Part shown: one piece after another, positions 2,559-19,307 of the stretch | How positions within the stretch are numbered: the stretch's first letter is position 1 | How the letters are laid out: the number at the start of each line of letters is the position of its first letter | Assembly: GCA_016874735.1 (NCBI GenBank) | Contig: VGTI01000012.1 | Location: 1-64,000, forward strand | Length of the DNA stretch: 64,000 nucleotides | Direction of reading: 5' to 3' | Origin: Deltaproteobacteria bacterium | Lineage (GTDB): Bacteria > Bdellovibrionota_B > Oligoflexia > Oligoflexales > CAIYRB01 | Position numbers and translations under genes: made by a program | The notes under the pieces: model-generated | What the model saw: only the letters and a program-made list of their open reading frames with translations | The model's database searches: none | What the model was told of the DNA's origin: nothing

Positions 2559-3506
2559 GTGAACATACTTGTATTCGGTGCTGGGGCAGTTGGTATCACC
2601 TTTGGCACCGCCCTGGTTGTGGCCGGCGATGCCGTAACGATGTTAGCGCGCGGTGCAATCGCTGATGAGCTTCGGTCTCAAGGTATGGGCTTCGGCGGTG
2701 TCGTCGGTAGTCACCATATTGATCCCCACAAATTTAAGGTAGCTGACGGACTAGCCGCTGCCTTGACTGAATCGTACGACATGATCCTCTGCTGTACCAA
2801 AGTAGCCAACTTGACGTCTTGGCAAGACGATATTCTGACTCTGGCCCGCGCTAATCCGAAGGCTATGCTAGTGTTTATGCAAAACGGCTGGGGGATAAAT
2901 GCGCATTTTGCTCATGAAATAGCCCCTGAGCGTATGGCTAATGCCGGTGTCCAGCTGGGAATCACACGCGCTAGCTTGACTCGTGTCCACATTAACTCAG
3001 CTGGAGACCCAAGCGACATCGGGCGGATCGGTTTTACCAGTAACCATGTCGTGCTTGATCAGCTGATTAGTCATATCAACGTGGGCGGCATATCCTGCCA
3101 ATTTGCACCTGATATCGGTTCCGCGCTTTGGAAGAAGATGCTTTACAATTGTACGACCAACGCACCATCCGCGTTGCTCAATGTTGCTAATGGCGGCCTA
3201 GGTGGGACGGACGGCCGCGCTTTAATGGGGCTCATAGTAGGCGAGATTTATGGCGTCATTCACGCACTAGGTTATCACCCACCGGTCGCTTCACCGGGTG
3301 CTTTTGCTGATCTCATGATTAACGAGATGATCCCGTTAACCGCCGATCACATCTCTTCGATGTTACAGGATCGGCGACAGGGGAGACCTACTGAGATTGA
3401 GTTTCTAAACGGGGCCGTTGTCAAAGTTGCGGAGTCTTTCGGATTGCCCTGTTTCGCCAACAAGACGATTTATCACCTCGTAAGAATGATGCAGGGCAAT
3501 GTGTAG
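2559..3506 (+). CDS. panE: Ketopantoate reductase family (PanE/ApbA) oxidoreductase
   Basis: The 315-residue protein starts at GTG with a GGAG ribosome site eight bases upstream. The N-terminal Rossmann motif GAGAVG (residues 7-12) binds NADPH. The C-terminal domain has WKKMLYNCTTNAPSALL, which carries the family's catalytic Lys and substrate-binding Asn, and SSMLQDRRQGRPTEIEFLNG, which is the typical closing motif with its Glu. 2-Dehydropantoate 2-reductase makes pantoate for coenzyme A. The family also includes paralogues with other substrates, and no panB or panC is nearby, so the exact role is not certain. The gene faces the lipoprotein gene at 3517 with only 10 bases between them. Confidence 0.8.
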   Translation: MNILVFGAGAVGITFGTALVVAGDAVTMLARGAIADELRSQGMGFGGVVGSHHIDPHKFKVADGLAAALTESYDMILCCTKVANLTSWQDDILTLARANPKAMLVFMQNGWGINAHFAHEIAPERMANAGVQLGITRASLTRVHINSAGDPSDIGRIGFTSNHVVLDQLISHINVGGISCQFAPDIGSALWKKMLYNCTTNAPSALLNVANGGLGGTDGRALMGLIVGEIYGVIHALGYHPPVASPGAFADLMINEMIPLTADHISSMLQDRRQGRPTEIEFLNGAVVKVAESFGLPCFANKTIYHLVRMMQGNV

Positions 3507-3516
3507 AACGATCTCG

Positions 3517-4410
3517 TTAGTGAGTAGCGGCAGCATTTTTATAAACAAACTGAATCGACTTCTGGACCTGCGCTTGCAGCGTATTTTTGGCAATACTTGA
3601 GTAACCGTGATCATCGACAGTGATGTGTCCAATCATAATGACATAGCCTGATCCTCCAACGTCCAGTCCAGCCATCATGATTTGGTAATCCTTCATGGTT
3701 TCACGGCTTTGGTCGATAGTGGATAGGTAGAGAAAACGGTCGCTGCCAAGATCGTAATGATCAGCAACAAAACTATAGGAAGTCCTGACATTGACTACGA
3801 CCACACGTTGTACCGAGGTTTCGTCGATCTTCCACCCCCTGATCCACTTAGGCGACGTATCCGGTGTCACTGGTGTGATGTTGACGGAGACTGGATTTGC
3901 TCCCTGAAAACGTATCAGATTGGACTCGTTGTCGATGTCACCTTGTTTAATCAACACTTGATCAAATTCGTGTCTAGCACTAATAGGCGTCTTGATAGCG
4001 ATGCCGAATAGGTAGCTAACCGTGCCATTGCGGCCCACGATGGGAGCCAGTGCCACCGGAGTGGGATTACCATTGCCTGTGTAGGGTTTAGAGAGAAGAT
4101 CTGCGAATGTAGCTTTAGCGCTACCGTCACTGCTACATATAGCATCCCATTGACTTTGATGGGTTGCAGATTGAGCCTTGGCAATGGCCACTGCACTGCT
4201 ACACCAATCACTCGCCGCCGCGCTGATGGTTGCCAAAGAAAGATTCACTCCTGCGGGTGAGTCTGCATGGACTGCAAGAGCGCTTCCATCGGCGCCCGTC
4301 GTTGCTGTCTCCTTGTCGCTCCTCGACTTCCAGATTCCCGATGTGTTGCCACATCCAGTTAGCGTCACTAGTACCGCGCTAGCACAAACAACGCGCCATG
4401 TAGTCGCCAT
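3517..4410 (-). CDS. Putative lipoprotein of unknown function
   Basis: The start at 4410 is chosen because a strong purine-rich ribosome site (gagggggtgacgtt) lies just upstream; an in-frame start 18 bases earlier is less good. The 297-residue protein begins with a short positive stretch, a hydrophobic helix and the lipobox LTGC, so it should be exported and lipidated. The rest is Ser/Thr- and Ala-rich with mixed beta-type sequence and no motif I recognise. It is transcribed toward panE with a 10-base gap. Function unknown. Confidence 0.68.
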   Translation of the reverse strand: MATTWRVVCASAVLVTLTGCGNTSGIWKSRSDKETATTGADGSALAVHADSPAGVNLSLATISAAASDWCSSAVAIAKAQSATHQSQWDAICSSDGSAKATFADLLSKPYTGNGNPTPVALAPIVGRNGTVSYLFGIAIKTPISARHEFDQVLIKQGDIDNESNLIRFQGANPVSVNITPVTPDTSPKWIRGWKIDETSVQRVVVVNVRTSYSFVADHYDLGSDRFLYLSTIDQSRETMKDYQIMMAGLDVGGSGYVIMIGHITVDDHGYSSIAKNTLQAQVQKSIQFVYKNAAATH

Positions 4411-4691: not shown

Positions 4692-7600
4692 ATGGCGAGA
4701 GTGGAAACTAAACAAGTGCGCATTATCTCAGTACTGGTGTCAGCACTGGTGATGGTTGTACTGGTCGTATTTAGTTCGGCTGTCGCGCGAGCGGAAGCCA
4801 CCATTTATCCCCTCAGCTACTCGGGGCGATTGACACTTCCTGGTGGTGAGCCCATGCAAGGGCCTGTCGACATGCAGGTGAAGTTTTGGGATGCCGTGAG
4901 CGGTGGTAATCCGCTGGCGAGCGCGTTTCCATTTAATGCCGTCACTTTGAATCAAGGCGTATTTCAGATTCAAATACCGACAGGAAGTGACGACATCGCC
5001 GCTATCTTTGGTGACGGCACAAAGACCGTGTTTATCGAGGTGACTGCTAAAGGTGTCACTTATCCACGGCAAGAATTTAGCTATGTGCCACTAGCGCTGC
5101 GTGTACCAGTCGACATGAAGACGGTGGCCTTTGATAGCGACGGCAAACTCAAGGTGGTCATTCCGTCCCGTCCTTCTCTAGACAAAGTACTCAGCGTTGA
5201 CAACGCCGGTAAGTTTGCCTGGGAATCGTTGGCTGTGAACTCCCTGCAAAATAAACCGGTGTCCCAGCAGGTACCGTCGTCTGGTCAGGTGCTGACTTAC
5301 GACGGGAGTCAGTGGGTGCCGCAGACGGTAAATCACGGTGGGTCAGTCACGAGTACATCCATCACTGCAGGAGCGGGGTTGACTGGCGGGACCATCACTA
5401 CCAGCGGCACGATTGGCCTAGCTCCCACTGGTGTTACTGCCGGGACATATGCGCGTGCTCTGGTGGTCGTTGATAGTACAGGGCGCATCACGAGTGCCAG
5501 TAGCGGTGCACCGATTGATCTTGCGAGTGATGTGGCAGGAGTCTTGCCGGTGGCCAAGGGGGGTACGGGCGCGGATCTCAGCAGCACCGGTGGAGCGCGG
5601 CAGTATCTAAAACAGGTGAGCGCAGGTGGTGTAGTCTCAGTCGGGACCATAGCCGCGGAGGATGTGACCCAGGCGCTTGGATATACGCCGCTCAATAAGG
5701 CAGGCGATACGCTGACTGGTGCTTTGACTCTGGGGTCGTATTCCACTGACCCAACAGGACTACAAGCTTCCGACAAAGGAAAAACCTGGTTCAATGCAAC
5801 TACGAACCAGATTAAATATTGGGACGGGTCAGCTGCAGTAGCACTTGGTGTTGCTGGCTCTGGACTCACCAGTCTCAACGGCCAGTCCGGGAATACCCAA
5901 ACATTCGCTACGCCAGTTGTGACTGGGAATGCTCCCGATTGGTCCTCATCCGGTAATACACATACGCTGAGTATCCCGCTGGCATCAGCTGCTAATGTGA
6001 CAGCTGGTTTAATATCGAACGCAGATTACACGAATTTTAAAAACAAGGTTGCCGAAGTCGCGCAGGGCACAGGCATCGCCGTATCAACAGCCAGTGGCAC
6101 GGCTACCGTTGGCTTAACTAACACAGCCGTCGTCGCAGGTAGCTACTCTAGGGCGAATATCACTGTCGATGCTCAGGGGCGTTTGACGGGAGCGATGAAT
6201 GCTGCGGCGATCATCGATGCTGATATAGCGACGAATGCGTCGATTGCACAGGGCAAAATCTCAGGTCTCAGCACTTCACTAGCGGGTAAAGAAAACACCG
6301 TCTCTGCGGGCACCAGCACGCAGTACTACCGTGGCGATAAGTCGTGGCAGGAACTTAATACGTCCTCAGTCACTGAGAGTGGCACAAGCCTCTACTACAA
6401 TGATGCTCGCACACGTAGCGCCCTGAGTGCCACGGGGCCTATCACCTACGGGGTGATGAGTGGGGCGATTGGTATCACGCAGGCTGGCAGCGCGGCTGAC
6501 GGTTATCTTTCGTCCACGGACTGGAATGCGTTTAACGCGAAGCAAAATGCACTCGGTTATACACCACTCAATAAAGCTGGTGATACGCTGACCGGTACTT
6601 TAACCCTAGGCACTTACCCCACCGACCCAACCGGTTTAGTATCAGGTGACAAAGGTAAAACTTGGTTTAATTCAAACACGAACCAGATTAAATACTGGGA
6701 TGGATCTAGTGCATTAGCACTTGGTGTGGCAGGATCCGGGCTGAGTAGTCTAAACGGTCAGTCCGGCAATACCCAAACATTTGCGACGCCAGGTGTGACT
6801 GGGAATGCTCCCGATTGGTCCTCAGCTGGCAATACCCATACGCTTAATATCCCGCTGGCATCAGCAGCCAATGTAACTGCGGGTTTACTGTCAAATGCAG
6901 ACTATACGAGTTTTAAAAACAAGGTGAGTGACGTGGCGCCGGGCACTGGCATCGCAGTGTCCTCAGCCAGTGGCACTGCTACCGTAAGCTTAAATAACAC
7001 AGCCGTCGTCGCTGGGAGCTACACTAGGGCCAATATCACCGTCGATGCCCAGGGGCGTTTGACGGGAGCGGTGAGTGCTGCGGCGATCGTGGATAGCGAT
7101 ATTGCGGCAAACGCTGCGATTGCTCAAAATAAAATCTCAGGCCTGAGCACTTCACTAGCGGGTAAAGAAAACACCGTCTCTGCTGGCACCAGCACGCAGT
7201 ACTACCGCGGTGACAAGTCGTGGCAGGAACTTAATACGTCCTCAGTCACTGAGAGTGGCACGAGCCTCTACTACAACGATGCACGCGCACGGAGTGCCCT
7301 GAGTGGCACAGCTCCCGTTACCTACAGTGTGATGAGTGGAGCCATTGGTATCACCCAGGCTGGCAGTGCTGCTAACGGTTATCTTTCGTCCACAGACTGG
7401 AACGCGTTTAATGCTAAGCAAAATGCGCTTGGTTACACTCCGCTCAATAAGGCGGGCGATACTCTGAGCGGGGCGCTCGATGCTGGTGGATCCGACATAT
7501 CGAACACCGGTAACATCCAATTGGCGGCCGCGAAAACTCTAGGCTTCGGTGTATATGCTACCGATCCCACGGGACTAGGCGCCGGAGATAAAGGCAAGAC

Positions 7601-9986
7601 TTGGTACAACTCAACCACGAGTCAGGTTAAGTACTGGGACGGCTCTGCAGCGATAGCGTTGGGCGCCACTGGCGGTGAAAACTGGGCTGCACCAGGAGCC
7701 ATCGGGGCGACGACACCAAACTCAGGTGCATTCACAAACGTTACAAGTAATGCGCAGTCCGGTTACGAGGCCAAACCGTACGGTGCCAACGCTGGCAACA
7801 CAGGTGAGGTGCGCTTCACCGAGCTAACATCCGGTGGCACCAATTACGTCGGCTTCAAAGCGCCTGACGCCATTGGTGCCAATAAAGTTTGGGTGCTTCC
7901 AGCAGTAGATGGTAACGCAGGACAGGTCCTAAAGACCGATGGTGCCGGTAACTTGGGCTGGGTATCACCGACGTCTGGTACGGTCACAAGTGTGGGTATC
8001 ACAGCGCCCGCAGCGGGCGTGACGGTCAGTGGCGGTCCGATTACGGGATCTGGAAACATGACCCTAGCGCTGGCTAACGACCTCGCAGCGGTCGAGAACA
8101 TAGCGACCACCGGTGGCGTTGAGCGCACGGCTACTGATACTTGGTCGACCTATACGCTCACCGCCGCTGGTAAGGCACTACTTGACGATGCCGATGCGAC
8201 AGCGCAGAGAATAACTTTGGGTCTGGGTGTGCTAGCGACTGCGGCAGCTGTGTCTGGAGGTGTAGCGGGCACGATCACGGACGGTACTATTACCGATGCT
8301 GATCTTTCAGCTTCAGCGAGTATTGGCGATGCAAAACTGGCAACGATCACGACTGCCGGTAAAGTGTCGGGGGCAGCGATTACCTCAGGGACAATTGGGG
8401 GATCAACTGGGATCAATACGTCTGGGAACTTGCTGACCAGTGGGAGTGTGGGGATTGGGACCACAGCGCCTAATTCTAGACTAGAAGTGCAGGGAAAAGT
8501 CACGATCTTTAATTCAAGTGGATCTACTGGTGCAGATGCCCTCACTTTGGGTGTGACTGGGTCCAGTAAATATCTTTTTGCTCAGTACGATACAACAGCG
8601 GATGCCGGCCGCATTGGGGCTTACGACTCCGCTGGATCTGGTGCGATAAAGAACTTATATCTCGCTGCGAGCAACGTTGGGATTGGGACCACCGCCCCAA
8701 GTTCGACTCTTACAGTTAATGGAACCATCGAATCGACTACGGGAGGGATAAAGTTTCCCGACGGTAGTGTCCAAAGCACCTCTGCGACCGGCGGTTCACA
8801 AAATATTGCATCAACTGAATTTACTTCCACATTCACCACAACATCGTCAAGCTGGGTCGATGTCACCGGCTTCAGTGTGACGATCACGCCTTCGCGTACA
8901 GACAGTAAGATACTTTTGTTTGCCAACGTCGTGGCTGGGTTGAATGGCGCCGGATCAGCGGCGTTTCGTCTATTGAGGGGATCCACTGCTATCGCCGTAC
9001 CTCCGACAGTTTCCGGATACAACGCAGTTTCCGGCGCAAATTTAAACAGTGGCACGGACTCAAATAATAATAAGAGCACAACAGTGGTCTTTGTGGATAC
9101 TCCTGGAACAACCAGCACTGTCACGTACAAGATTCAAGTTGCATCGTTTCAGAGCGTGAGTTTAGTTGTGAACGCGCTAGGAGCAGACGCCTCAGGTGCT
9201 GGGTGGTCCCAACGCACTCGGTCGTCTCTTACGGCCGCCGAAATTTCATCGTCAACGATCGCTAGCAGTGGTAGCGGAACCCCAAACTACGTGCCCCTTT
9301 GGAACAGTACCACGGGTCTTGGAAACAGTCCTCTTTCCGTGAGTGCAGGCAATGTCGGTATTGGTACCACGGCGCCTGGCAGCACACTGCAAGTCAACGG
9401 CACGGTCACTGTGGATGGCGGTGGCGCTAACATCGGCTCAATCGCTAATTCTCTCAAATTCGGCGGCTCTGGTTCAGGCGAGGGCGTTGGCTCCAAGCGT
9501 AGCGCTGGCGGCAACCAGTACGGCCTCGATTTTTACACCAGCAGTATTTCACGCATGTCGATAAATCCAGTGGGAAACGTCGGGATTGGGACGACTGACC
9601 CAGGGGCTAACCTTGACGTAAACGGTTCCATCAAAAGTCCAATGTGGAAAGCCACCCAGTTGATGAACTCAACTCCTGGTGCCTTGCCCCTGACAAGTGC
9701 ATCGTTCACTACCGGTGGTGGCACACTTATGATTTTTGCCTCGGGTGCCGGTTATGCCGTAACGCTCCAACAAATCGGAATGTCCGTAGCAATCGATAAC
9801 GTGGTGAAGGGCTACGCTAAATCCTTTACAAACGAGACAAGTAGCCACAAGGCTTTTGCAGCAAATGCGATATTAGTCACTGGAATTTCCGCAGGGTCAC
9901 ACACCATAACTCTAAGCGCTTGGAATAATACCGTGACTAACTTTGATGATTTCTTTAGTGTCACAGTCCTTGAGTTGCCTTTTTAA
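4692..9986 (+). CDS. Giant secreted fibre/adhesin A with tandem 292-residue modules
   Basis: A 1764-residue exported protein. Residues 1-36 are a signal peptide (positive start, long hydrophobic helix, AVARAEA cleavage region). A conserved N-terminal domain follows (YPLSYSGRLTLPGGEPMQG). The central part has two complete 292-residue modules plus a partial third, each beginning LNKAGDTL and containing TDPTG...DKGKTWF, YYRGDKSWQELNTSSVTESGTSLYYNDAR and LSSTDWNAFNAKQNALGY. The C-terminal part has several phage-tail-fibre-like GxVGIGTTAPxxxLxVxG repeats and ends in a beta-rich tip (TVLELPF). Such proteins are presumed trimeric surface fibres used in adhesion. After the stop, the same frame stays open for 92 more codons. 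Anchoring and secretion route beyond Sec are not visible. Confidence 0.85.
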   Translation: MARVETKQVRIISVLVSALVMVVLVVFSSAVARAEATIYPLSYSGRLTLPGGEPMQGPVDMQVKFWDAVSGGNPLASAFPFNAVTLNQGVFQIQIPTGSDDIAAIFGDGTKTVFIEVTAKGVTYPRQEFSYVPLALRVPVDMKTVAFDSDGKLKVVIPSRPSLDKVLSVDNAGKFAWESLAVNSLQNKPVSQQVPSSGQVLTYDGSQWVPQTVNHGGSVTSTSITAGAGLTGGTITTSGTIGLAPTGVTAGTYARALVVVDSTGRITSASSGAPIDLASDVAGVLPVAKGGTGADLSSTGGARQYLKQVSAGGVVSVGTIAAEDVTQALGYTPLNKAGDTLTGALTLGSYSTDPTGLQASDKGKTWFNATTNQIKYWDGSAAVALGVAGSGLTSLNGQSGNTQTFATPVVTGNAPDWSSSGNTHTLSIPLASAANVTAGLISNADYTNFKNKVAEVAQGTGIAVSTASGTATVGLTNTAVVAGSYSRANITVDAQGRLTGAMNAAAIIDADIATNASIAQGKISGLSTSLAGKENTVSAGTSTQYYRGDKSWQELNTSSVTESGTSLYYNDARTRSALSATGPITYGVMSGAIGITQAGSAADGYLSSTDWNAFNAKQNALGYTPLNKAGDTLTGTLTLGTYPTDPTGLVSGDKGKTWFNSNTNQIKYWDGSSALALGVAGSGLSSLNGQSGNTQTFATPGVTGNAPDWSSAGNTHTLNIPLASAANVTAGLLSNADYTSFKNKVSDVAPGTGIAVSSASGTATVSLNNTAVVAGSYTRANITVDAQGRLTGAVSAAAIVDSDIAANAAIAQNKISGLSTSLAGKENTVSAGTSTQYYRGDKSWQELNTSSVTESGTSLYYNDARARSALSGTAPVTYSVMSGAIGITQAGSAANGYLSSTDWNAFNAKQNALGYTPLNKAGDTLSGALDAGGSDISNTGNIQLAAAKTLGFGVYATDPTGLGAGDKGKTWYNSTTSQVKYWDGSAAIALGATGGENWAAPGAIGATTPNSGAFTNVTSNAQSGYEAKPYGANAGNTGEVRFTELTSGGTNYVGFKAPDAIGANKVWVLPAVDGNAGQVLKTDGAGNLGWVSPTSGTVTSVGITAPAAGVTVSGGPITGSGNMTLALANDLAAVENIATTGGVERTATDTWSTYTLTAAGKALLDDADATAQRITLGLGVLATAAAVSGGVAGTITDGTITDADLSASASIGDAKLATITTAGKVSGAAITSGTIGGSTGINTSGNLLTSGSVGIGTTAPNSRLEVQGKVTIFNSSGSTGADALTLGVTGSSKYLFAQYDTTADAGRIGAYDSAGSGAIKNLYLAASNVGIGTTAPSSTLTVNGTIESTTGGIKFPDGSVQSTSATGGSQNIASTEFTSTFTTTSSSWVDVTGFSVTITPSRTDSKILLFANVVAGLNGAGSAAFRLLRGSTAIAVPPTVSGYNAVSGANLNSGTDSNNNKSTTVVFVDTPGTTSTVTYKIQVASFQSVSLVVNALGADASGAGWSQRTRSSLTAAEISSSTIASSGSGTPNYVPLWNSTTGLGNSPLSVSAGNVGIGTTAPGSTLQVNGTVTVDGGGANIGSIANSLKFGGSGSGEGVGSKRSAGGNQYGLDFYTSSISRMSINPVGNVGIGTTDPGANLDVNGSIKSPMWKATQLMNSTPGALPLTSASFTTGGGTLMIFASGAGYAVTLQQIGMSVAIDNVVKGYAKSFTNETSSHKAFAANAILVTGISAGSHTITLSAWNNTVTNFDDFFSVTVLELPF
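5691..7442 (+). repeat. Tandem 876-bp repeats in fibre A
   Basis: Two head-to-tail units, 5691-6566 and 6567-7442, both exactly 876 bp (292 codons), measured from the CTCAATAA that encodes the start of LNKAGD. A partial third unit starts at 7443. The exact register keeps the reading frame, so unit number can change by recombination without breaking the gene. Confidence 0.85.
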
Positions 9987-10265
9987 TCGCAACCCGTCGT
10001 CATCTTTCAGAAATCCGATGATGTCATATTATTTAGGATCGACACAGGCGAACCAATCTGCAACACAAGCGGCGTTAACTTTAATTCCAATTCTCAGGCG
10101 CGGTTTATTTTCCGCGGCAACATCAAAGCGGACTGCATCACGAACGATACTTCCTGGGGCTTCGGAATCAACGGCTGGTCTGGCACCTGCGGCACCGGGG
10201 TGGTCACCTATGCCGCCGGAGGCGGTCGCACCTACTTCCAACAGACGGCGGTGTGGATCAAATAG
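9987..10265 (+). pseudogene. Orphan fibre C-terminal module, in frame behind fibre A stop
   Basis: Ninety-two sense codons follow the TAA of fibre A in the same frame and end at TAG (10263-10265). The encoded piece starts SQPVVIFQKSDDVILFRIDTG and has three Cys residues, a Gly/Ser/Asn-rich middle and the ending QQTAVWIK, which looks like a small folded tip domain. It has no start or ribosome site of its own. It is either the remnant of an older or alternative fibre tip, or the product of stop readthrough. Confidence 0.55.
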
Positions 10266-10346
10266 TCCATATACACCCCAGCATTGCAGCTGGAACACGG
10301 ATTATCGGGCGTTGCAGCAACTCTAGTCTCTGTGGTTTAGCTGTTC

Positions 10347-10725
10347 TTATCCACAATTAAGACTGAAGTTACCCGGGCCATTATCCGCGCGAAAGCTATC
10401 GTGCTGGCCTTTGCGCTTGGGCTGCGGATATTTTGATTTACCGGTAAAAAACCGGTTAAATGCTGTCCCTAGATTTTTAATGGCTTGCTGCGGCGCCACC
10501 TTGGTGACGTCTAACATCCACGGGAATTGCTCCCGCTTAACCGCATTGAGCCTTTTGCGGAGTCCGGCTTCGCTCAGTTTTTCACCGGCCTCATAACTTT
10601 GCTTCCACTCATGCAACGCCCAGTAATGTCTAGTTTGGTGCGAACCTAACAGCACCAGCACTGCGGGCGCAGTAGATGCGTTGCTGGACGTTGAGATTCA
10701 GAGCTGTCTTATGAGCAATAATCAA
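10347..10725 (-). pseudogene. TnpB (IS605/IS607 OrfB) N-terminal remnant
   Basis: The frame opens at a TTG (10725) overlapping the tnpA stop and reads AHKTALNLNVQQRIYCARS then AGAVRFAPN, the usual TnpB start. It then hits a stop and shifts frame. The next frame continues WALHEWKQSYEAGEKLSEAG and KVAPQQAIKNLGTAFNRFF, the helix-turn-helix part of TnpB. About 10 extra bases separate Asn from Trp, where family members have them adjacent. Sequence ends at about 125 residues, so the RuvC-like nuclease part is absent. The gene is dead and no guide-RNA end is expected. Confidence 0.72.
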
Positions 10726-11249
10726 GGACCTGGATCCGCTGCGGCTGTGAACGCTTTATGAGCACGACGTTTAGCACCGCGACGCCCGTATAATCGCGCA
10801 CAAAAACTTGTTAGAATATCGATCATATCCCTCGATAAATCGGGAACTAAATCGTCGTCGATTTCTTGTTCATCGACCACTATAAGCTTTCGTCCCGCAG
10901 ATGCCAGTGACATCTCAATATACTCAAAGCCGAAGCTGACAAGTCGCTCGCGATGCTCAACGATAATAAACTTGATGGATGGATCAGCTAGCAATTTGAG
11001 CAGTCGGGGCCGCCTACCATTTAAACCTGAGGCTACTTCCGTGATGACAGCGCTAACCGGCAATTGCCTGCCGACGGCATAACTAGTCAAGCGACCGACT
11101 TGACGCTCAATATCAGTCTTCCGATCATGAGAACTTACTCGTGCATAGATGGCGACGGCCCCTGAGCTTGCTGCGTTATTTTGCTCAACGATAATCGTAC
11201 CAGTTGGGAGCTGAGTAGCAGGAACGGGGAGCCTACCTTGCTGCCACAT
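10722..11249 (-). CDS. tnpA: IS607-type serine recombinase TnpA, N-terminally truncated
   Basis: A 175-residue protein with AIYARVSSHDRKTDIERQ, the catalytic Ser region of IS607-type resolvases (Ser39/40 here), followed by family-like segments (EVASGLNGRRP, IIVEHRERLVSFGFEYIE). Family members carry a MerR-like DNA-binding helix domain before this; only its last part remains (MWQQGRLPVPATQLPTGTIIV). An in-frame stop lies 14 codons above the ATG, so the missing part is not simply a wrong start. The Asp and Arg residues of the catalytic domain look present. Together with the broken tnpB it forms an inactive IS607 element. Confidence 0.75.
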   Translation of the reverse strand: MWQQGRLPVPATQLPTGTIIVEQNNAASSGAVAIYARVSSHDRKTDIERQVGRLTSYAVGRQLPVSAVITEVASGLNGRRPRLLKLLADPSIKFIIVEHRERLVSFGFEYIEMSLASAGRKLIVVDEQEIDDDLVPDLSRDMIDILTSFCARLYGRRGAKRRAHKAFTAAADPGP

Positions 11250-11477
11250 GCGCCCTACAGAAAAAATCTGGTATCAAGCGGTCAGGCACCTTTAGGAACC
11301 CACCGAAACCACTGACAGGCCGATTCGTGGCGCATCCCTGATCCTCGCTTAACCCTATTTTATGACCAAAAAAATATATCAATTAGACTAATTTAAGGCC
11401 ATAAAATATAATTTAAATGGCTGTATTTGGGACAAAAAATATTTGTCCAATAGTTCTAATTACTTAAGAGATCGTCA

Positions 11478-12794
11478 ATGAGACGTCATCGCTTACAGGA
11501 TTTAATCGAGTGGAAGAACCGGGCCACCCGCAAACCCTTGCTGGTGCGCGGCGCGAGGCAGGTGGGCAAAAGTTACCTGGTCCGGGCTTTTGGGTTAGAG
11601 CACTTCCGCAACGTCGTCGAGATCAATTTTGAAATGCGCCCCGATCTGGCGTCGTTATTCGCCGGAAGCCTTGAGCCACAGCGGCTGGTGCGCGACATTA
11701 AAATTGCGACACAGCAGGAGATTCACCCAGGTGAGACGCTCCTCTTTTTCGACGAGATCCAACTCGTGCCGCAGTCGCTGACGGCGCTACGTTATTTCTA
11801 CGAGAAGATGCCCGAGCTACACGTGATTGCAGCCGGGTCGCTTATGGAATTTGCGATAGAGGAAGTTGGCATTCCGGTCGGACGAGTCGAATCCTTGTAT
11901 TTGTATCCGATGAATTTCGCCGAGTTTTTGGAGGCCCGCGGTCAGAAAGAATTATGCAGTCTGCTAGATGATCATGGCGGCAACGATCCAATCAGCGAAT
12001 TTGCCCATAAACAGTTTTTGACGTTCTTATCAGAATACTTTGCCATAGGAGGTATGCCAGAAGCCACGCGAGTCTGGTCAGAGACCCAAGACCTTGTGAG
12101 TGTTGCACGCGTGCATAGCACGTTAGTTGAAAATTACAGACAAGACTTCCCGAAATATGCCCGTCGTGCACAAGTCAAATATGTCGAAACCGTGTTCCAA
12201 TCCATCCCCCGTCTACTTGGACGAAAGTTTGTCTATTCTCATATCGATCCCAGCATTAAAGCTCGCGATCTCAAGGCCGCTTTGCAACTTTTATCAAAGG
12301 CAGGAGTTGTACACTTAGTGCACCATACCAGCGCTAACGGTATCCCTTTAGGTGCAGAGACAAAAACCGACGTTTATAAGGTGATCTTTCTCGACGTAGC
12401 ACTAGCGCAGTCACTTCTAGGTTTACAACAAGGTGCGTGGATCTTGGATTCAGCGACCCAGTTTGCAAATCGTGGAGCGATCGTCGAGAGTTTTGTCGGC
12501 CAGGAGATCCTGGCAGCAGGCCCGGCACAGATTCGAGGCGAGCTTTTCTACTGGGTTAGAGAGAAGTCCACAAGTTTGGCCGAGGTTGACTATATCTGTA
12601 CCAAACGCGACCAAATTCTACCGATTGAAGTTAAAAGTGGTAGCAGACGTCGAGGCAAGAGCGTGCAAATACTCTTAAGTGAAAAACCTAACATCAAAGA
12701 GTATCGTCAGGTCTCAATCGATAACTTTCATAGCTTGAGGCACGGCATTAACATCCCTCTATATGCTGTACAACGCTTGATCCAGGGACCCTAG
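11478..12794 (+). CDS. AAA-family ATPase with DUF4143 domain
   Basis: A 438-residue protein. Walker A is GARQVGKSY at residues 25-33; Walker B is LLFFDEIQ with Asp92-Glu93; a sensor-like AAGSLMEF follows. The second half is the DUF4143 region, ending in EVDYICTKRDQILPIEVKSG, a PD-(D/E)xK-like motif often seen at the end of this family. Proteins of this kind are common, mobile in distribution, and without a settled function; some lie near toxin-like or defence genes. The gene sits between an IS607 remnant and fibre B. The upstream 200 bases are AT-rich and a weak AAGAGA ribosome site precedes ATG, both suggesting recent acquisition. Confidence 0.85.
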   Translation: MRRHRLQDLIEWKNRATRKPLLVRGARQVGKSYLVRAFGLEHFRNVVEINFEMRPDLASLFAGSLEPQRLVRDIKIATQQEIHPGETLLFFDEIQLVPQSLTALRYFYEKMPELHVIAAGSLMEFAIEEVGIPVGRVESLYLYPMNFAEFLEARGQKELCSLLDDHGGNDPISEFAHKQFLTFLSEYFAIGGMPEATRVWSETQDLVSVARVHSTLVENYRQDFPKYARRAQVKYVETVFQSIPRLLGRKFVYSHIDPSIKARDLKAALQLLSKAGVVHLVHHTSANGIPLGAETKTDVYKVIFLDVALAQSLLGLQQGAWILDSATQFANRGAIVESFVGQEILAAGPAQIRGELFYWVREKSTSLAEVDYICTKRDQILPIEVKSGSRRRGKSVQILLSEKPNIKEYRQVSIDNFHSLRHGINIPLYAVQRLIQGP

Positions 12795-13010: not shown

Positions 13011-15983
13011 ATGGCGACAGTGGAAACTAAACAAATGCGCATTGTCTCATTGCTGGTGTCAGCACTGGTGATGGTTGTACTTGTCGTGTTTAGTTCGGCT
13101 GTCGCGCGAGCGGAAGCTACCATTTATCCCCTCAGCTACTCGGGGCGATTGACACTTCCTGGTGGTGAGCCCATGCAAGGGTCTGTCGATATGCAGGTGA
13201 AGTTTTGGGATGCCGTGAACGGTGGTAATCTGCTAGCGAGTGCGTTTCCATTTAATGCCGTCTCTTTGAATCAAGGCGTATTTCAGATTCAAATACCGAC
13301 AGGAAGTGACGACATCGCCGCTATCTTTGGTGACGGCACAAAGACCGTCTTTATCGAGGTGACAGCTAAAGATTTTGCTTATCCACGGCAAGAATTTATC
13401 TATGTGCCACTAGCGCTGCGTGTACCAGTCGATATGAAGACGGTGGCCTTTGATAGCGACGGCAAACTCAAGGTGGTCATTCCGGCGCGTCCTTCTATAG
13501 ACAAAGTACTCAGCGTTGACAACGCTGGTAAGTTTGCCTGGGAATCGTTGGCTGTGAGCACTCTGCAAAATCAACCCGTGTCCCAGCAGGTACCGTCATC
13601 TGGCCAGGTACTGACCTATGACGGGAGTCAGTGGGTGCCGCAGACTATAAATCAGGGTGGCTCTGTGACGAGTACTTCCATCACTGCAGGTGTGGGGTTA
13701 ACTGGCGGGACCATCACGACTAGCGGCACGATCGGTCTCGCTCCAACCGGCGTGACAGCCGGAACTTACGCCCGTGCTCAAGTGGTGGTCGATAGTACAG
13801 GACGCATCACAAGTGCGACCAGCGGTGCATCGATCGATCTTGCGAGTGATGTGGCAGGAGTCTTGCCGGTGGCTAAAGGTGGTACGGGCGCATCATCAAT
13901 CGTGGCTAATAGCGTGGTACTCGGTAGTGGCACTAATCCGGTGCAATCTGTAGCTCCAGGCACAAGCGGCAACGTTCTAACATCCAATGGCACGACCTGG
14001 ACCAGTGCGACCGTGCCTCAAGCAAATAGTTCCACAACTGGTTACCTTAGCGCGGGAGACTGGACGAGCTTCAGTCTTAAGCAACCACCCGGCAATTACT
14101 TGATAGCACTGACTGGTGATGTGACGACCTCTAGTTTTAACGCGGGATCAGCAACGGCGACTCTGGCTAGCGTGGCGATCCAGGGGACATCAACCAAAGT
14201 GACTTACGATGTAAAGGGGCGTGTAACTTCTGGGGCGACGTTAGAGCCAGCGGATATTCCGCCACTAAGCACGGGGAAAATCACCTCTGGAACTTTGCCA
14301 GTAGCACTGGGTGGTACCGGAACCGATCTAACCAGTACAGGTGGAGCGCGGCAGTATCTTAAACAGACGAGCGCAGGTGGTGTAGTTTCGGTCGGGACCA
14401 TAGCCGCGGAGGATATCACCCAGGCGCTTGGATTTACGCCACTCAATAAGTCCGGTGATACGCTGACTGGCGCATTGACGCTTGAAACTTTTACCTCCGA
14501 TCCCTCAGGTCTTCAGGTAGCAGATAAAGGCAAAACCTGGTTTAACTCAAATACGAATCAGATCAAGTACTGGGATGGCTCAACTGCAATAGCACTTGGT
14601 ATTGCTGGATCAGGGCTAACTAGCCTCAACGGTCAGTCCGGGAATACCCAAACATTTGCGACGCCAGGTGTGACTGGGAATGCTCCCGATTGGTCCTCAG
14701 CTGGCAACACCCATACGCTCAATATCCCGCTGGCATCCTCGGCAAGTGTCACGGCGGGTTTACTATCAAACGCAGACTATACGAGTTTTAAAAACAAGGT
14801 GAGTGACGTGGCGCCGGGCACTGGCATCGCAGTGTCCTCAGCCAGTGGCACTGCTACCGTAAGCTTAAATAACACAGCCGTCGTCGCTGGGAGCTACACT
14901 AGGGCCAATATCACCGTCGATGCCCAGGGGCGTTTGACGGGAGCGGTGAGTGCTGCGGCGATCGTGGATAGCGATATTGCGGCAAACGCTGCGATTGCTC
15001 AAAATAAAATCTCAGGCCTGAGCACTTCACTAGCGGGTAAAGAAAACACCATCTCTGCGGGCACCAGCACGCAGTACTACCGCGGTGACAAGTCGTGGCA
15101 GGAACTTAATACGTCCTCAGTCACTGAGAGTGGCACGAGCCTCTACTACAATGACGCACGCGCACGAAGCGCCCTGAGTGCAACGGGACCCATTACCTAC
15201 GGTGTGCTGAGTGGAGCCATTGGTATCACCCAGGCTGGCAGTGCAGCAAGTGGTTATCTTTCGTCCACGGATTGGAATGCGTTTAACGCGAAGCAAAATG
15301 CGCTTGGTTACACGCCACTCAACAAGGCCGGCGATACGCTGACCGGCACTTTGACCCTTGGCTCCTATGCCACTGACCCCACGGGTATGGTATCAGGCGA
15401 CAAAGGCAAAACCTGGTTCAACTCAAATACGAATCAGATTAAGTACTGGGACGGGTCTAACGCACTGGCACTCGGTGTAGCTGGCTCTGGACTTACTAGT
15501 CTCAACGGTCAGTCCGGTAACACCCAAACATTCGCTACCCCCGGCACATCAGGTAACGCCCCCGATTGGTCTTCATCCGGCAACACCCATACGCTTAATA
15601 TCCCGCTGGCATCCGTGGCAAGCGTCACGGCGGGATTACTATCAAACGCGGACTACGCGAGTTTTAAAAACAAGGTAGCCGAAGTCGTGCAGGGCACCGG
15701 CATCGCAGTATCAACAGTCAGTGGCGCGGCCACGGTCAGCCTTGCAAGCGTTGGTAGCGCAGGTAGCTATGCTAAGGTAACGACCGATGCTCTGGGCCGC
15801 GTGATTAGCGGTACAACTCTCAGTGCCATCGATCTCCCGCCCCACAGTGCTGATCTGATCGCATCTGGAACGCTTAATGTCCTCAACGGAGGCACTGGTG
15901 TCACCTCACTTGCTACCAACAGCGTCATCCTGGGCAAACGGCACCGGCCCGGTGCAGTCCGTAGCTCCTGGCGCCAGCGGTAG
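13011..15983 (+). CDS. Fibre/adhesin B, 5' part before a frameshift
   Basis: Paralogue of fibre A with the same signal peptide and N-terminal domain (about 95% alike over the first 200 residues). The next section differs from A: an extra block at about residues 300-440 (NSVVLGSGTNPVQSVAPGTSG, then GDVTTSS) replaces part of it. One complete 876-bp module and a partial second follow. The normal frame is lost at 15936-15938 (ggcAAAcgg), where one extra A turns the expected GNGTGPVQS into GKRHRP and leads to a stop at 15983. Reading continues one base over in the 15877-17613 frame. The shift site is not a long homopolymer, so either a real mutation or a sequencing error fits better than programmed slippage. 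Confidence 0.8.
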   Translation: MATVETKQMRIVSLLVSALVMVVLVVFSSAVARAEATIYPLSYSGRLTLPGGEPMQGSVDMQVKFWDAVNGGNLLASAFPFNAVSLNQGVFQIQIPTGSDDIAAIFGDGTKTVFIEVTAKDFAYPRQEFIYVPLALRVPVDMKTVAFDSDGKLKVVIPARPSIDKVLSVDNAGKFAWESLAVSTLQNQPVSQQVPSSGQVLTYDGSQWVPQTINQGGSVTSTSITAGVGLTGGTITTSGTIGLAPTGVTAGTYARAQVVVDSTGRITSATSGASIDLASDVAGVLPVAKGGTGASSIVANSVVLGSGTNPVQSVAPGTSGNVLTSNGTTWTSATVPQANSSTTGYLSAGDWTSFSLKQPPGNYLIALTGDVTTSSFNAGSATATLASVAIQGTSTKVTYDVKGRVTSGATLEPADIPPLSTGKITSGTLPVALGGTGTDLTSTGGARQYLKQTSAGGVVSVGTIAAEDITQALGFTPLNKSGDTLTGALTLETFTSDPSGLQVADKGKTWFNSNTNQIKYWDGSTAIALGIAGSGLTSLNGQSGNTQTFATPGVTGNAPDWSSAGNTHTLNIPLASSASVTAGLLSNADYTSFKNKVSDVAPGTGIAVSSASGTATVSLNNTAVVAGSYTRANITVDAQGRLTGAVSAAAIVDSDIAANAAIAQNKISGLSTSLAGKENTISAGTSTQYYRGDKSWQELNTSSVTESGTSLYYNDARARSALSATGPITYGVLSGAIGITQAGSAASGYLSSTDWNAFNAKQNALGYTPLNKAGDTLTGTLTLGSYATDPTGMVSGDKGKTWFNSNTNQIKYWDGSNALALGVAGSGLTSLNGQSGNTQTFATPGTSGNAPDWSSSGNTHTLNIPLASVASVTAGLLSNADYASFKNKVAEVVQGTGIAVSTVSGAATVSLASVGSAGSYAKVTTDALGRVISGTTLSAIDLPPHSADLIASGTLNVLNGGTGVTSLATNSVILGKRHRPGAVRSSWRQR
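14442..15317 (+). repeat. 876-bp fibre module in gene B
   Basis: A single unit of the same length and register as the two in fibre A, followed by a partial unit from 15318. Positions 14772-15050 of this unit are identical by eye to 6897-7175 of fibre A. Confidence 0.8.
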
Positions 15984-17613
15984 TGTCCTCACCTCAAACG
16001 GGACCACTTGGCAGAGTGCGGCTCTTCCGGCCACCAACTGGGCGACTCCTGGCACCATAGGGTCGGCCACACCCAATACCGGTGCCTTCACCAGCATCAC
16101 ATCAAGCGCACAAGCCGGTTACGAGGCTAAACCCTTCGGAGCGGCCACAGGAAACACCGGAGAAGTTCGGTTCGACGAACTCGCGGCTAATGGCACTAAT
16201 TACGTCGGGTTCAAGGCACCCGATGTGATTGGTACTAATAAAGTGTGGGTACTTCCTGCTACCGACGGCACGGCAGGCCAAGTGCTAAAAACCGATGGCA
16301 TCGGTAATCTAGGCTGGGCCTCCGATGGAGGCGGCACGGTCACGAGTGTAGGCATCACAGCTCCTGGAGCAGGTATCACTGTCAGTGGTAGTCCTATCAC
16401 CGCCAGCGGCAACATGACGCTTGCCCTTGCTAACGACCTCAGTGCCGTCGAGGCACTCACAACCACAGGTTTAGCAAAACGCACTGCCAACGACACGTGG
16501 ACCACAGTTGCCGATAACTCTGCCAATTGGGACAGTGCCTACACGGACCGACTCAAGTGGGGTGGTGGCGCAACAGGACTCGTTGCAGCGACTGGTCGTA
16601 CGAGTCTTGGTCTTGGTAATTTAGCCACACTTTCTGCAGTCGGTAGCTCGGAGATTAGCGATGGCAGTATCAGTGATGCAGATATTTCAGCCTCAGCAGC
16701 AATAGTTGATAGCAAGCTAGCGACTATCAGCACAGCAGGTAAAGTATCGGGGGCAGCAATTACCTCGGGAACAATCGGTGGAAGTACCGCGATGACTACC
16801 TCTGGTAACATTACGACATCTGGGAGCGTAGGGATTGGGACGACGTCTCCAAACGACAAACTACAGGTTGTTGGCAACATCTCTGGAGACTCGCTGTCTG
16901 TCGGCCCCTATTTGACCGCTTACAATGCGGGTATCGAACTTGGTAACAGCAGCGGCACATCGACTGTTCCGTACATTGATTTTCATTACGGCACTGGTTC
17001 AGCACAAGATTACAACACCCGCATCATCAATTCCGGTAACAACCGTCTCGACTTTACGAATTGGGTTGGTACTCCGTTGTCCCTGAATGCCGGCAACGTC
17101 GGGATCGCAACAACGTCGCCTGGATCCAAACTTCAGGTGAACGGTAATGCTGCAATTGGCTATTCAGCCGCGACCGCAGGTCCAGCTAATGGCCTCGCAG
17201 TGAGTGGCAACGTCGGCATTGGGACGACGGCGCCAGCTGCACTGCTCCAAGCAGGATCATTGACTGAAATAACACCTGCAACAAATACTGGCACAATTAA
17301 AGTGACTGGAACAACCCAAACTAGCCTTGAATCTGTAGGGGGTATCGAGCTTCCTATTGCTACCAACGGTTATGGTATAAAGATGCAGGCTTTGTCAGAT
17401 ACCGGATCCTCATTTGCGATCGCACGTAGGAATGCATCTGCAACTTGGTCTGAAAGCCTCCGGATAAATGCAAATGGCAATGTTGGGATTGGGACAACGG
17501 CGCCGACCCAAGCGCTGGATGTAAATGGCACCATCCGCACCTCTCACGTTAGTATCACGGGCTCACGTTGTAGCTGGTCGGGGTGGGCATGTAGCCCGAC
17601 TTGCGCAGCCTGA
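15877..17613 (+). CDS. Fibre/adhesin B, 3' part after the frameshift
   Basis: This frame only makes sense as the continuation of the gene at 13011; real homology begins at about 15935 with NGTGPVQSVAPGASGSVLTSNG. It carries the KVWVLPATDG region shared with fibre A, then five GxVGIGTTxP-like fibre repeats and a different tip from A (TSHVSITGSRCSWSGWACSP). A TGA at 17611-17613 cuts the Cys-rich tip. The same frame continues for 28 codons (YYQAGTMMGAANNCNG...VQIYCCSF) to a TGA at 17698-17700, and this tail reads like the natural end of the domain. With the frameshift and the TGA, fibre B is probably a pseudogene unless both are bypassed. Confidence 0.72.
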   Translation: MSSTEALVSPHLLPTASSWANGTGPVQSVAPGASGSVLTSNGTTWQSAALPATNWATPGTIGSATPNTGAFTSITSSAQAGYEAKPFGAATGNTGEVRFDELAANGTNYVGFKAPDVIGTNKVWVLPATDGTAGQVLKTDGIGNLGWASDGGGTVTSVGITAPGAGITVSGSPITASGNMTLALANDLSAVEALTTTGLAKRTANDTWTTVADNSANWDSAYTDRLKWGGGATGLVAATGRTSLGLGNLATLSAVGSSEISDGSISDADISASAAIVDSKLATISTAGKVSGAAITSGTIGGSTAMTTSGNITTSGSVGIGTTSPNDKLQVVGNISGDSLSVGPYLTAYNAGIELGNSSGTSTVPYIDFHYGTGSAQDYNTRIINSGNNRLDFTNWVGTPLSLNAGNVGIATTSPGSKLQVNGNAAIGYSAATAGPANGLAVSGNVGIGTTAPAALLQAGSLTEITPATNTGTIKVTGTTQTSLESVGGIELPIATNGYGIKMQALSDTGSSFAIARRNASATWSESLRINANGNVGIGTTAPTQALDVNGTIRTSHVSITGSRCSWSGWACSPTCAA

Positions 17614-17880: not shown

Positions 17881-18303
17881 CTAGGTCCCAACCAGTGGCG
17901 GTTCTGTTGATGTGATTTGTTTAGTTGCCCAATCAAGAACCGCACAAGCTAAAGTTAGGGCCTCCTTATACTCATCTTCGGTAACTGGCTCACCCCAACC
18001 TGGGTAACGTGTTTCTACCGCATACTCAGTGAGAGCGGCTGCAGATTCGATATCAGGCGAGATAGTGACACCGGCTACGGTAAGTTGTTCGAAAAGCTTA
18101 CCAATATCGTGAGTGTAGGGAAATTTAAGACCTAGTAATATCATCACAGCTTTGATTGATTTTTCAGCCGCTTGCTGAGCATCAAAGCACAAATCCTCCC
18201 AAAAGCCCTCTGCTGGTTTCGACTGACACGCACGTGCATAGCTGCCGCGAGCTCGACTTAACCATTGTTTAGCGGCGATAATTGAGCGTTGATTAGGCGG
18301 CAT
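17881..18303 (-). CDS. HEPN-domain protein (partner of MNT nucleotidyltransferase)
   Basis: A 140-residue all-helical protein starting at ATG 18303, which overlaps the end of the MNT gene by 11 bases. Family features: WLSRARGSYARAC, CFDAQQAAEKSIKAVMILLG, FPYTHDIGKLFEQL and AVETRYPGWGEPVTEDEYKEAL. In HEPN/MNT pairs the HEPN protein is often an RNase toxin held in check by the nucleotidyltransferase. This one lacks a clear RX4-6H catalytic motif (no His follows the Arg in RYPG), so it is more like the non-nuclease, binding-type HEPN proteins. Toxicity is therefore uncertain. A longer frame from 18354 would run into the MNT gene. Confidence 0.82.
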   Translation of the reverse strand: MPPNQRSIIAAKQWLSRARGSYARACQSKPAEGFWEDLCFDAQQAAEKSIKAVMILLGLKFPYTHDIGKLFEQLTVAGVTISPDIESAAALTEYAVETRYPGWGEPVTEDEYKEALTLACAVLDWATKQITSTEPPLVGT

Positions 18304-18607
18304 AAAGCACTTTACCCTCTTGCAACGCGGGACAAATAACTGTCCAAAAATCATCTTTATGACGGATTAAGTCATCCTCAGTCGCAACGACAAAGTCTAA
18401 AGGTATTCCATTGCGTCGCACGGATTTGTAGAGCAATTGGGCGGTCTTTCTCCGATGTGTGCCGTCCGGCATCACAACCAAAATGTCTAGATCGCTATCT
18501 GGACCAGTCGTGCCACGCGCCGACGAGCCAAACAAAATAATTCGCGTTGGATTAACGAGGGACACGATTTGAGCAACGATAATTTGTACTGATTGTAGGG
18601 ATGCCAT
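18293..18607 (-). CDS. MNT-type minimal nucleotidyltransferase
   Basis: A 104-residue protein with the pol-beta-type motif GSSARG at residues 27-32 and the metal-binding DSDLDILV at 37-44, plus a third conserved Asp in LDFVVATEDD. Such proteins transfer nucleotides (AMP in studied type VII toxin-antitoxin pairs) to a HEPN partner and neutralise it. The pair MNT then HEPN, with overlapping ends, is the usual operon order. The module lies between the end of fibre B and a detached fibre 3' end, in antisense to both. Confidence 0.85.
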   Translation of the reverse strand: MASLQSVQIIVAQIVSLVNPTRIILFGSSARGTTGPDSDLDILVVMPDGTHRRKTAQLLYKSVRRNGIPLDFVVATEDDLIRHKDDFWTVICPALQEGKVLYAA

Positions 18608-18647: not shown

Positions 18648-19307
18648 CAGACTCTATCAAGGACTGCAAAAATCAGCAACGTCGGTATTGGCACAACCGC
18701 TCCAAGTACAAAGCTACATGTACACCAGGAATTCGGTGGTGCCAGCAATGGTGCTTACGGCATTTACTACACCTCAGCTAATACCGGCGATACTGGCTAC
18801 TATCCCCTGGTCCTTAGGCACGGTCTTTCCACCAACGTCATGTATGTGACAGCTTGGGGATATACTTGGACGTCCAATTCGTATGGCCAAGGCTCGGACG
18901 AGCGATTAAAACGAGATATCATCACGACACCTCATGCTCTTAATGATGTGCTTTCCCTGCGTGGCGTGAATTATTACTGGAAGGATCCGGCCAAGGGTGA
19001 TGCCCTTCAACTAGGTCTTATTGCGCAGGAAGTGGAGAAGGTGATCCCCGAGGTAGTTGCGGAGGATAAAGAGGGCATGAAAGCGGTGTCGTACTCTAAC
19101 CTCGTCGCTGTACTGATTGAGGCGATCAAGGAAGAGCATGCAGAGAAAGAGTCGCAAGTCACTGCACTCAAGGCCTCACTTAAAAAAGCGCAAGACGACG
19201 CGGTCTCAGCTAATGCACGTGCGGTAAGCAACGAGGCTACGATCAAAGAGTTAAAAAACCTAGTCTGTCGCCAATATCCCGAAGCAAATGTTTGTGCGAC
19301 TCCGTAA
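18648..19307 (+). pseudogene. Detached fibre 3' end with peptidase-S74 intramolecular chaperone
   Basis: The frame becomes open after a TGA at about 18643 and begins inside a fibre repeat (SNVGIGTTAPSTKLHVHQ). A short tip region (YYTSANTGDTGYYPLVLRHG) is followed by GSDERLKRDIITTPHALNDV, the start of the S74/endosialidase chaperone, with Ser and Lys five residues apart as in the self-cleavage dyad. LGLIAQEVEKVIPEVV and SYSNLVAVLIEAIKE are the other family motifs. A coiled coil (about 50 residues, EKESQVTALKASLKKAQ) and CRQYPEANVC end it. No plausible start or ribosome site precedes the fragment; the internal ATG at 18840 would omit the fibre repeat. It is the 3' end of a third fibre gene, or a donor cassette. 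Confidence 0.75.

Follow-up and report, generated by a model that had tools for sequence, protein, structure and literature searches.

A probable remnant of a former fibrinogen-like tip behind a MAT-like fibre gene, and its setting among displaced fibre tips

The DNA analysed here (the window) is a stretch of 64,000 nucleotides from a Deltaproteobacteria bacterium. Its forward strand carries a MAT-like fibre gene, fibre A (4692..9986), whose stop codon is followed in the same frame by a further open stretch (9987..10265, + strand), referred to below as the module. The module is very probably a remnant of the former fibrinogen-like tip of the fibre A gene, namely the half that was left when this tip was replaced. 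We read it as a decayed member of a displaced-tip architecture that is found behind other fibres as well.

Identification of the module

Fibre A encodes 1764 aa (open from 4692 to 9983, TAA at 9984-9986). The module continues in its frame with 92 sense codons (9987-10262) and ends in VWIK and a TAG at 10263-10265. The original prediction had regarded an open frame of this quality as unlikely to arise by chance. This argument proved weak: a first-order Markov simulation put the probability of a frame open for at least 92 codons at 0.14 when the composition was that of the module, at 0.013 when it was that of the next 1.2 kb, and at 0.020 for the two combined. Because the +1 frame from the same start point is open for 112 codons, the openness of the module is by itself little proof. 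The module is judged to be real on account of its sequence similarity to C13, not of its open length.

In a protein search of the 166 contigs of the genome, residues 11-92 of the module matched C13:3617-3865 with an E value of 2.6e-29 and 60% identity, and this was the sole other match. The homologous part of the module (10011..10262, + strand; residues 9-92) aligns with residues 138-222 of the C13 domain at 57.6% identity, and the DNA is 73% identical over 227 bp (window 10041-10267). The similarity to C13 at the DNA level stops within 2 nt of the module's TAG. No homologue was detected for the first ~24 nt (9987-10010). Since the detectable old tip thus begins ~24 nt past the TAA, the predicted direct continuation of fibre A holds for the frame only. 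A frame-shifted homology in a MAFFT alignment, running from the TAA back to the C13 “LFN”, was rejected; it needs a 4-nt deletion and is supported by few bases.

In C13, the matched segment forms the C-terminal part of an open stretch that spans 222 codons and includes a GGGW motif. This homologue is a full domain of the GGGWT type: it is recognised by the NCBIfam model NF040941 (fibrinogen-like YCDxxxxGGGW domain) at E 4.2e-15, its match to Pfam Fibrinogen_C lies below the family cut-off, and its nearest PDB sequences are fibrinogen-like structures (tenascin and intelectin chains). Since residues 9-92 align with C13 residues 138-222, the module is, as judged by this alignment, the C-terminal half of a fibrinogen-like domain of the bacterial GGGWT type. 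Unlike the C13 homologue, it holds the other half of the domain: no family was returned by the 46-residue NF040941 model or by Pfam, and the N-terminal YCDxxxxGGGW motif is absent. Sequence continuity with a member of the NF040941 family is provided by C13 residues 138-222, but because the homology falls outside the GGGW motif, the module is to be regarded as a fragment of a member's tip and not as a member itself. The N-terminal half of the domain was not found elsewhere in the window's contig at E <= 1.

Among 80 codons aligned between module and C13, there are 20, 17 and 31 differences at codon positions 1, 2 and 3, and dN is 0.26 compared with a dS of 0.84; most of the divergence therefore arose under coding constraint. 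The homologous part of the module contains neither an internal stop codon nor a frameshift. A cysteine near its end has been lost (YFQQ vs YCQH), which several other such domains keep, as seen by eye.

The present tip of fibre A (9642..9983, + strand) has only weak relatives at 30% identity, in same-genus genomes among others, and no close relative among 55 other genomes. It is preceded by the last repeat of the fibre body, an NVGIGTT...VNG “handle” (9568..9626, + strand) with short DNA similarity to other fibres (79-96% over 26-61 bp). Neither an NVGIGTT repeat nor another body repeat lies ahead of the module. Single-sequence structure prediction was uninformative for the present tip as well as for the module (mean pLDDT 44.5 and 32.5).

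Fibrinogen-like domains as fibre tips

A match between fibre A (1166-1416) and Bd2133 of Bdellovibrio, a solved MAT fibre (8ond), with an E value of 5.5e-10 suggests that the family of fibre A is close to the Bdellovibrio MAT (mosaic adhesive trimer) fibres. It is this similarity from which we infer a predatory habit of the organism. The genome contains 47 matches to the N-terminus of fibre A, some of them partial, and the N-termini are conserved while the C-termini differ. Fibre-family frames of 15,097 and 12,490 codons without stops were seen in G000 C18 and C20. The tips of MAT fibres of Bdellovibrio bacteriovorus are exchangeable in evolution (PMC10769870), and the fibres share with those described here the Bd2133-like shaft, a member type with an S74 domain and the combination of conserved N-termini with varied C-termini. 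There are also differences. The members here are about twice as many as the 21 of PMC10769870, the main text of that paper does not contain the word “fibrinogen”, and the part of it available to us reports exchanged tips rather than physical leftovers of old ones.

Fibrinogen-like domains were found at eight places in the genome at E <= 1, including the query and the module. In C72 (a frame of 1180 aa) and C46 (1995 aa) such a domain ends the fibre body without an intervening stop, and by this sequence criterion fibrinogen-like domains are tips of fibre A's family. The original prediction listed a discarded earlier tip among its options, and this option is supported: other fibres of the genome use the tip domain whose C-terminal half makes up the module. 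As a check it had asked for a fibre gene with the module joined to a main body; related domains are fused in this way in C72 and C46, but the exact tip is not. No genome searched contains this tip joined to the fibre A body, and we therefore infer, rather than observe, their former fusion. The further check, for a homologue in any fibre protein, was passed through C13, with one reservation: the C13 fibre body and the full domain are parted by an in-frame TGA (C13 3197-3199, leader DGTY*TSC), at a site where homologues carry an amino acid. Both members of the subfamily in the genome are hence cut off.

Close relatives were not found in a wider search. The module had no match in phage records, and 58 genomes of the phylum contained no further member of its subfamily. 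Six distant relatives were found in genome contigs, mainly over the N-terminal motif region only. The C13 domain has distant counterparts in cyanophages (26-29% among the matches listed), which suggests that such domains also occur on phage-encoded proteins, nothing closer being seen there. Viral contigs gave no match to the C13 domain half, the fibre A tip or the 22-bp repeat described below.

A second fibre gene of the window, fibre B (13011..17613, + strand), is a near-duplicate of the fibre A body in two frames (13011-15983 and 15877-17613). The main body blocks of both genes are 82-92% identical in DNA, the genes diverge towards the tip, and the tips are unrelated; in this distal region only the short NVGIGTT-VNG handles are shared with other fibres. 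Inside the cysteine-rich tip of fibre B lies an in-frame TGA (17611-17613). This TGA and the one in C13, which likewise stands between a fibre and a fibrinogen-like domain, could be taken together with the open, in-frame module as a sign that stops are read through and that a minor, longer form of fibre A with a second C-terminal domain is made. We regard this low-level readthrough, which had also been proposed, as highly improbable. The extension would add half a domain, the module is without match and the joined form absent in all of the 55 other genomes, and TGA terminates many fibre frames of the genome. Selenocysteine at the two in-frame TGA sites is argued against by the SelB-like hits, none of which reached the curated cut-off; the completeness of the genome is rated at 96.8%. 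Judged by sequence, both TGAs are read as nonsense mutations.

Repeat and insertion element downstream of the module

At 10342..10363 (+ strand), 77 nt past the module's TAG, lies a copy of a 22-bp repeat, truncated here. The genome contains 15 copies with at most three mismatches and none of a reversed control pattern. For eleven of them, a fibre-type stop on the same strand lies less than 500 nt upstream; for one of the others the distance is 653 nt, for another it is 3.5 kb, and two are without a fibre stop in the sequence examined. C9 has two copies in tandem, 48 bp apart. In C51, C64, C71, C134 and C139 the repeat has a long form, identical or near-identical, which continues for 127 nt up to the contig end and contains a hairpin; it may represent one end of a multi-copy element that is missing from the assembly. 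The repeat was not seen at up to four mismatches in 60 stretches from four same-genus genomes, and it had no plasmid match. An Rfam search with three repeat loci gave a single sub-threshold match elsewhere, which was judged to be due to chance. C134 (L110) has a tyrosine recombinase gene (3065-3904) that ends ~230 nt ahead of a repeat copy, and the same contig also has displaced tip pieces.

The repeat is abutted by an IS607-type remnant (10364..11254, - strand) with a transposase gene (10722-11249, - strand) and an N-terminal piece of TnpB (within 10347-10661, - strand). It is 91% identical to a copy inside the C14 fibre gene (C14 11913-12781), which has a longer TnpB. The presence of this element 100 nt downstream of the module, and of its close copy within a fibre gene, might indicate that the module stems from another fibre gene or from transferred DNA, a fragment of which landed here by an unrelated rearrangement, for instance together with the element. 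The third-position GC content of 0.68 in the module, compared with 0.52 in fibre A and 0.48 in its present tip, would fit such an origin. We nevertheless consider it improbable: the module stands in sense orientation ~24 nt behind the stop of fibre A and has kept its own stop, a repeat following it is typical of what is found behind fibre stops, and the IS similarity begins only at 10364.

Displaced tips behind other fibres

A survey of 30 stretches downstream of fibre ends, from which intact neighbouring fibres and independent fibrinogen-like genes were excluded, gave 11 displaced fibre pieces: behind fibres A and B, C9, C13 (three pieces), C15, C83, C117 and C129, and at the contig start of C134. 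All except those of A, C117 and C83 (8 of the 11) lie directly behind a type II toxin-antitoxin gene or pair. In seven of these eight, the piece starts with a recognisable handle, less than ~130 nt from where the antitoxin or toxin gene starts; in C15 the handle is further inside. The counterpart of the module behind fibre B is a displaced 3' fibre fragment with an S74 chaperone domain (18678..19307, + strand), which starts at a handle and is preceded by a pair of HEPN and nucleotidyltransferase (MNT-type) genes (17881..18607, - strand). A HEPN gene with a nucleotidyltransferase gene is also found in C129. In C9, a weak BrnT match (E 0.0055, below cut-off) is paired with a CopG antitoxin, and the three C13 pieces are associated with BrnT and CopG/BrnA, with TumE and HVO_A0114, and with DUF4258 and a weak helix-turn-helix protein. 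C15 has BrnA, the one gene there that the test covered, and C134 was assigned only because 94 bp of it, at the toxin start and the handle, match the C9 stretch at 98%. The toxin-antitoxin genes ahead of displaced tips come from many different families (C9, C13, C15 and C129; in the relatives L118, L129, L134 and L142). In C117, which has no such gene, the frame goes on past the TAA of the tip with a piece whose DNA (221 bp) is 86% identical to an internal part of the C64 fibre body.

Among 95 proteins encoded behind fibre ends, Pfam at 1e-4 yielded NTP_transf_2 (3), CopG antitoxin (3), BrnT (2), HEPN (2), BrnA (2), HepT-like (1) and DUF4143/AAA_14 (6), counted among the 25 commonest families. 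No toxin-antitoxin family was found at a limit of 0.01 in a control of 26 small ORFs from 121.5 kb without fibres. The control ORFs were restricted to at most 200 aa and came partly from G005, a rule not identical to that of the 95-protein set; due to this difference in selection, the contrast is only indicative. ATPase genes of the AAA_14/DUF4143 type recur behind fibres (window 11478-12794; C134 1720-2880; C143 497-1684).

Relatives of the genus were represented by 60 stretches from four genomes. As the stretches were picked by contig number, and partly around weak hits, the five places with displaced fragments found there are no census. Four of the five lie behind a toxin-antitoxin gene or pair: a Gp49-type toxin with a helix-turn-helix antitoxin in G005 C71 (L118), a PIN protein on the same strand in G005 C83, BrnT in G003 C176 and a BrnA-like ORF, identified by eye only, in G003 C177. 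A second fragment in G003 C177 (3452) is without a toxin-antitoxin gene. In L118, the live and the displaced tip align over 556 positions, beginning at the handle, with 83% DNA identity. Judged by sequence, displaced tips that keep a handle could serve as donors, L118 being the clearest case.

Such handle-bearing tips elsewhere in the genus, together with the fact that the module is open and adjoins a live fibre, are what would speak for its being a silent donor, kept as a template from which expressed fibrinogen-like tips are altered by gene conversion. For the module itself, we consider this highly improbable, and the proposal of a silent donor cassette is not supported in its case. Since the module lacks the N-terminal half, which holds the GGGW motif, as well as the connection to a fibre body, including the NVGIGTT repeat needed for recombination, it is a remnant and unusable as a donor. 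Moreover, the one further subfamily member found in the genome, in C13, is cut off by the TGA and live tips of this kind were not detected there; a DNA identity of 73% is low for gene conversion.

Proposed origin of the module

As a remnant of a replaced tip, the module probably arose as follows. A new tip with its own stop would have entered fibre A at the last of its NVGIGTT handles (9568-9626) or close to it, leaving the older fibrinogen-like tip downstream of the new stop. The segment from just past this stop to the middle of the old domain would have been lost, either in the same event or by a later deletion, and the remnant would now be untranslated and decaying. Its frame match with fibre A would be without function, either a one-in-three chance or a carry-over, and the repeat at 10342-10363 would mark the former 3' end of the fibre gene. 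Replacement is supported by the displaced fragments behind C13, C9, C15, C83, C129 and fibre B, and by the parallel in C117. A counterpoint is that the only full-length relative in the subfamily (C13) is itself separated from its fibre by a TGA. That the present tip of fibre A is the newcomer rests on its position, and recent origin and hidden use of the module both fit the single sequence.

Implications for tip exchange

At the loci described above, the order is live tip, toxin-antitoxin genes, handle and old tip. One could conjecture that handle-to-handle recombination would restore the old tip at the cost of the live tip and the toxin-antitoxin pair, both of which would be deleted. Cells that switch by such a deletion would risk being killed, so the pair would act as a lock on the current tip, and new cassettes consisting of tip, stop and toxin-antitoxin genes would enter at the handle. 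A tip-switching system of this kind at handle-bearing loci is a tentative proposal that we think has perhaps one chance in a few, and the module itself would be past the point of return. It is possible, although we would not expect it, that a switch with toxin-antitoxin locks works at other loci, but not at the module. We also considered the simpler view that toxin-antitoxin genes were merely inserted into fibre genes. However, the live fibre upstream has its own tip at the end in the loci inspected, and the displaced tip and the live tip of L118 duplicate one another. A two-step history, with displacement first and insertion of the toxin-antitoxin genes afterwards, is possible.

Two known systems offer partial parallels, as far as the accessible parts of the sources go. 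In Rhs loci of Salmonella, displaced C-terminal modules recombine back (PMC3967940). Orphan Rhs-CT modules resemble the displaced tips in that C-termini are displaced downstream of the main gene and have no translation start. They often keep a core stretch for recombination, which the module does not have; a shared body stretch ahead of the displaced tip is present at C9, C13, C129, fibre B and L118. In contrast to the toxin and immunity gene of Rhs, the displaced unit here is a binding tip with a toxin-antitoxin neighbour. In the Vibrio cholerae superintegron, toxin-antitoxin pairs lie among repeats and spare genes, as they do here, and keep the array stable, since cells from which they are lost are killed (PMC11551772); unlike there, no integron integrase or attC site was identified (attC by eye only). 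By analogy, a stabilising role of toxin-antitoxin genes in this genome is a conjecture. In searches of the open-access literature, none of the papers listed was described as dealing with MAT tips that have been displaced or with toxin-antitoxin pairs located between tips of fibres.

The module itself is an ordinary fossil in an informative setting. Tip exchange in MAT fibres is known from the comparison of genes, and the region described here preserves the physical scar of one such exchange. The pattern that surrounds it suggests how predators store and change the domains with which they recognise their prey.
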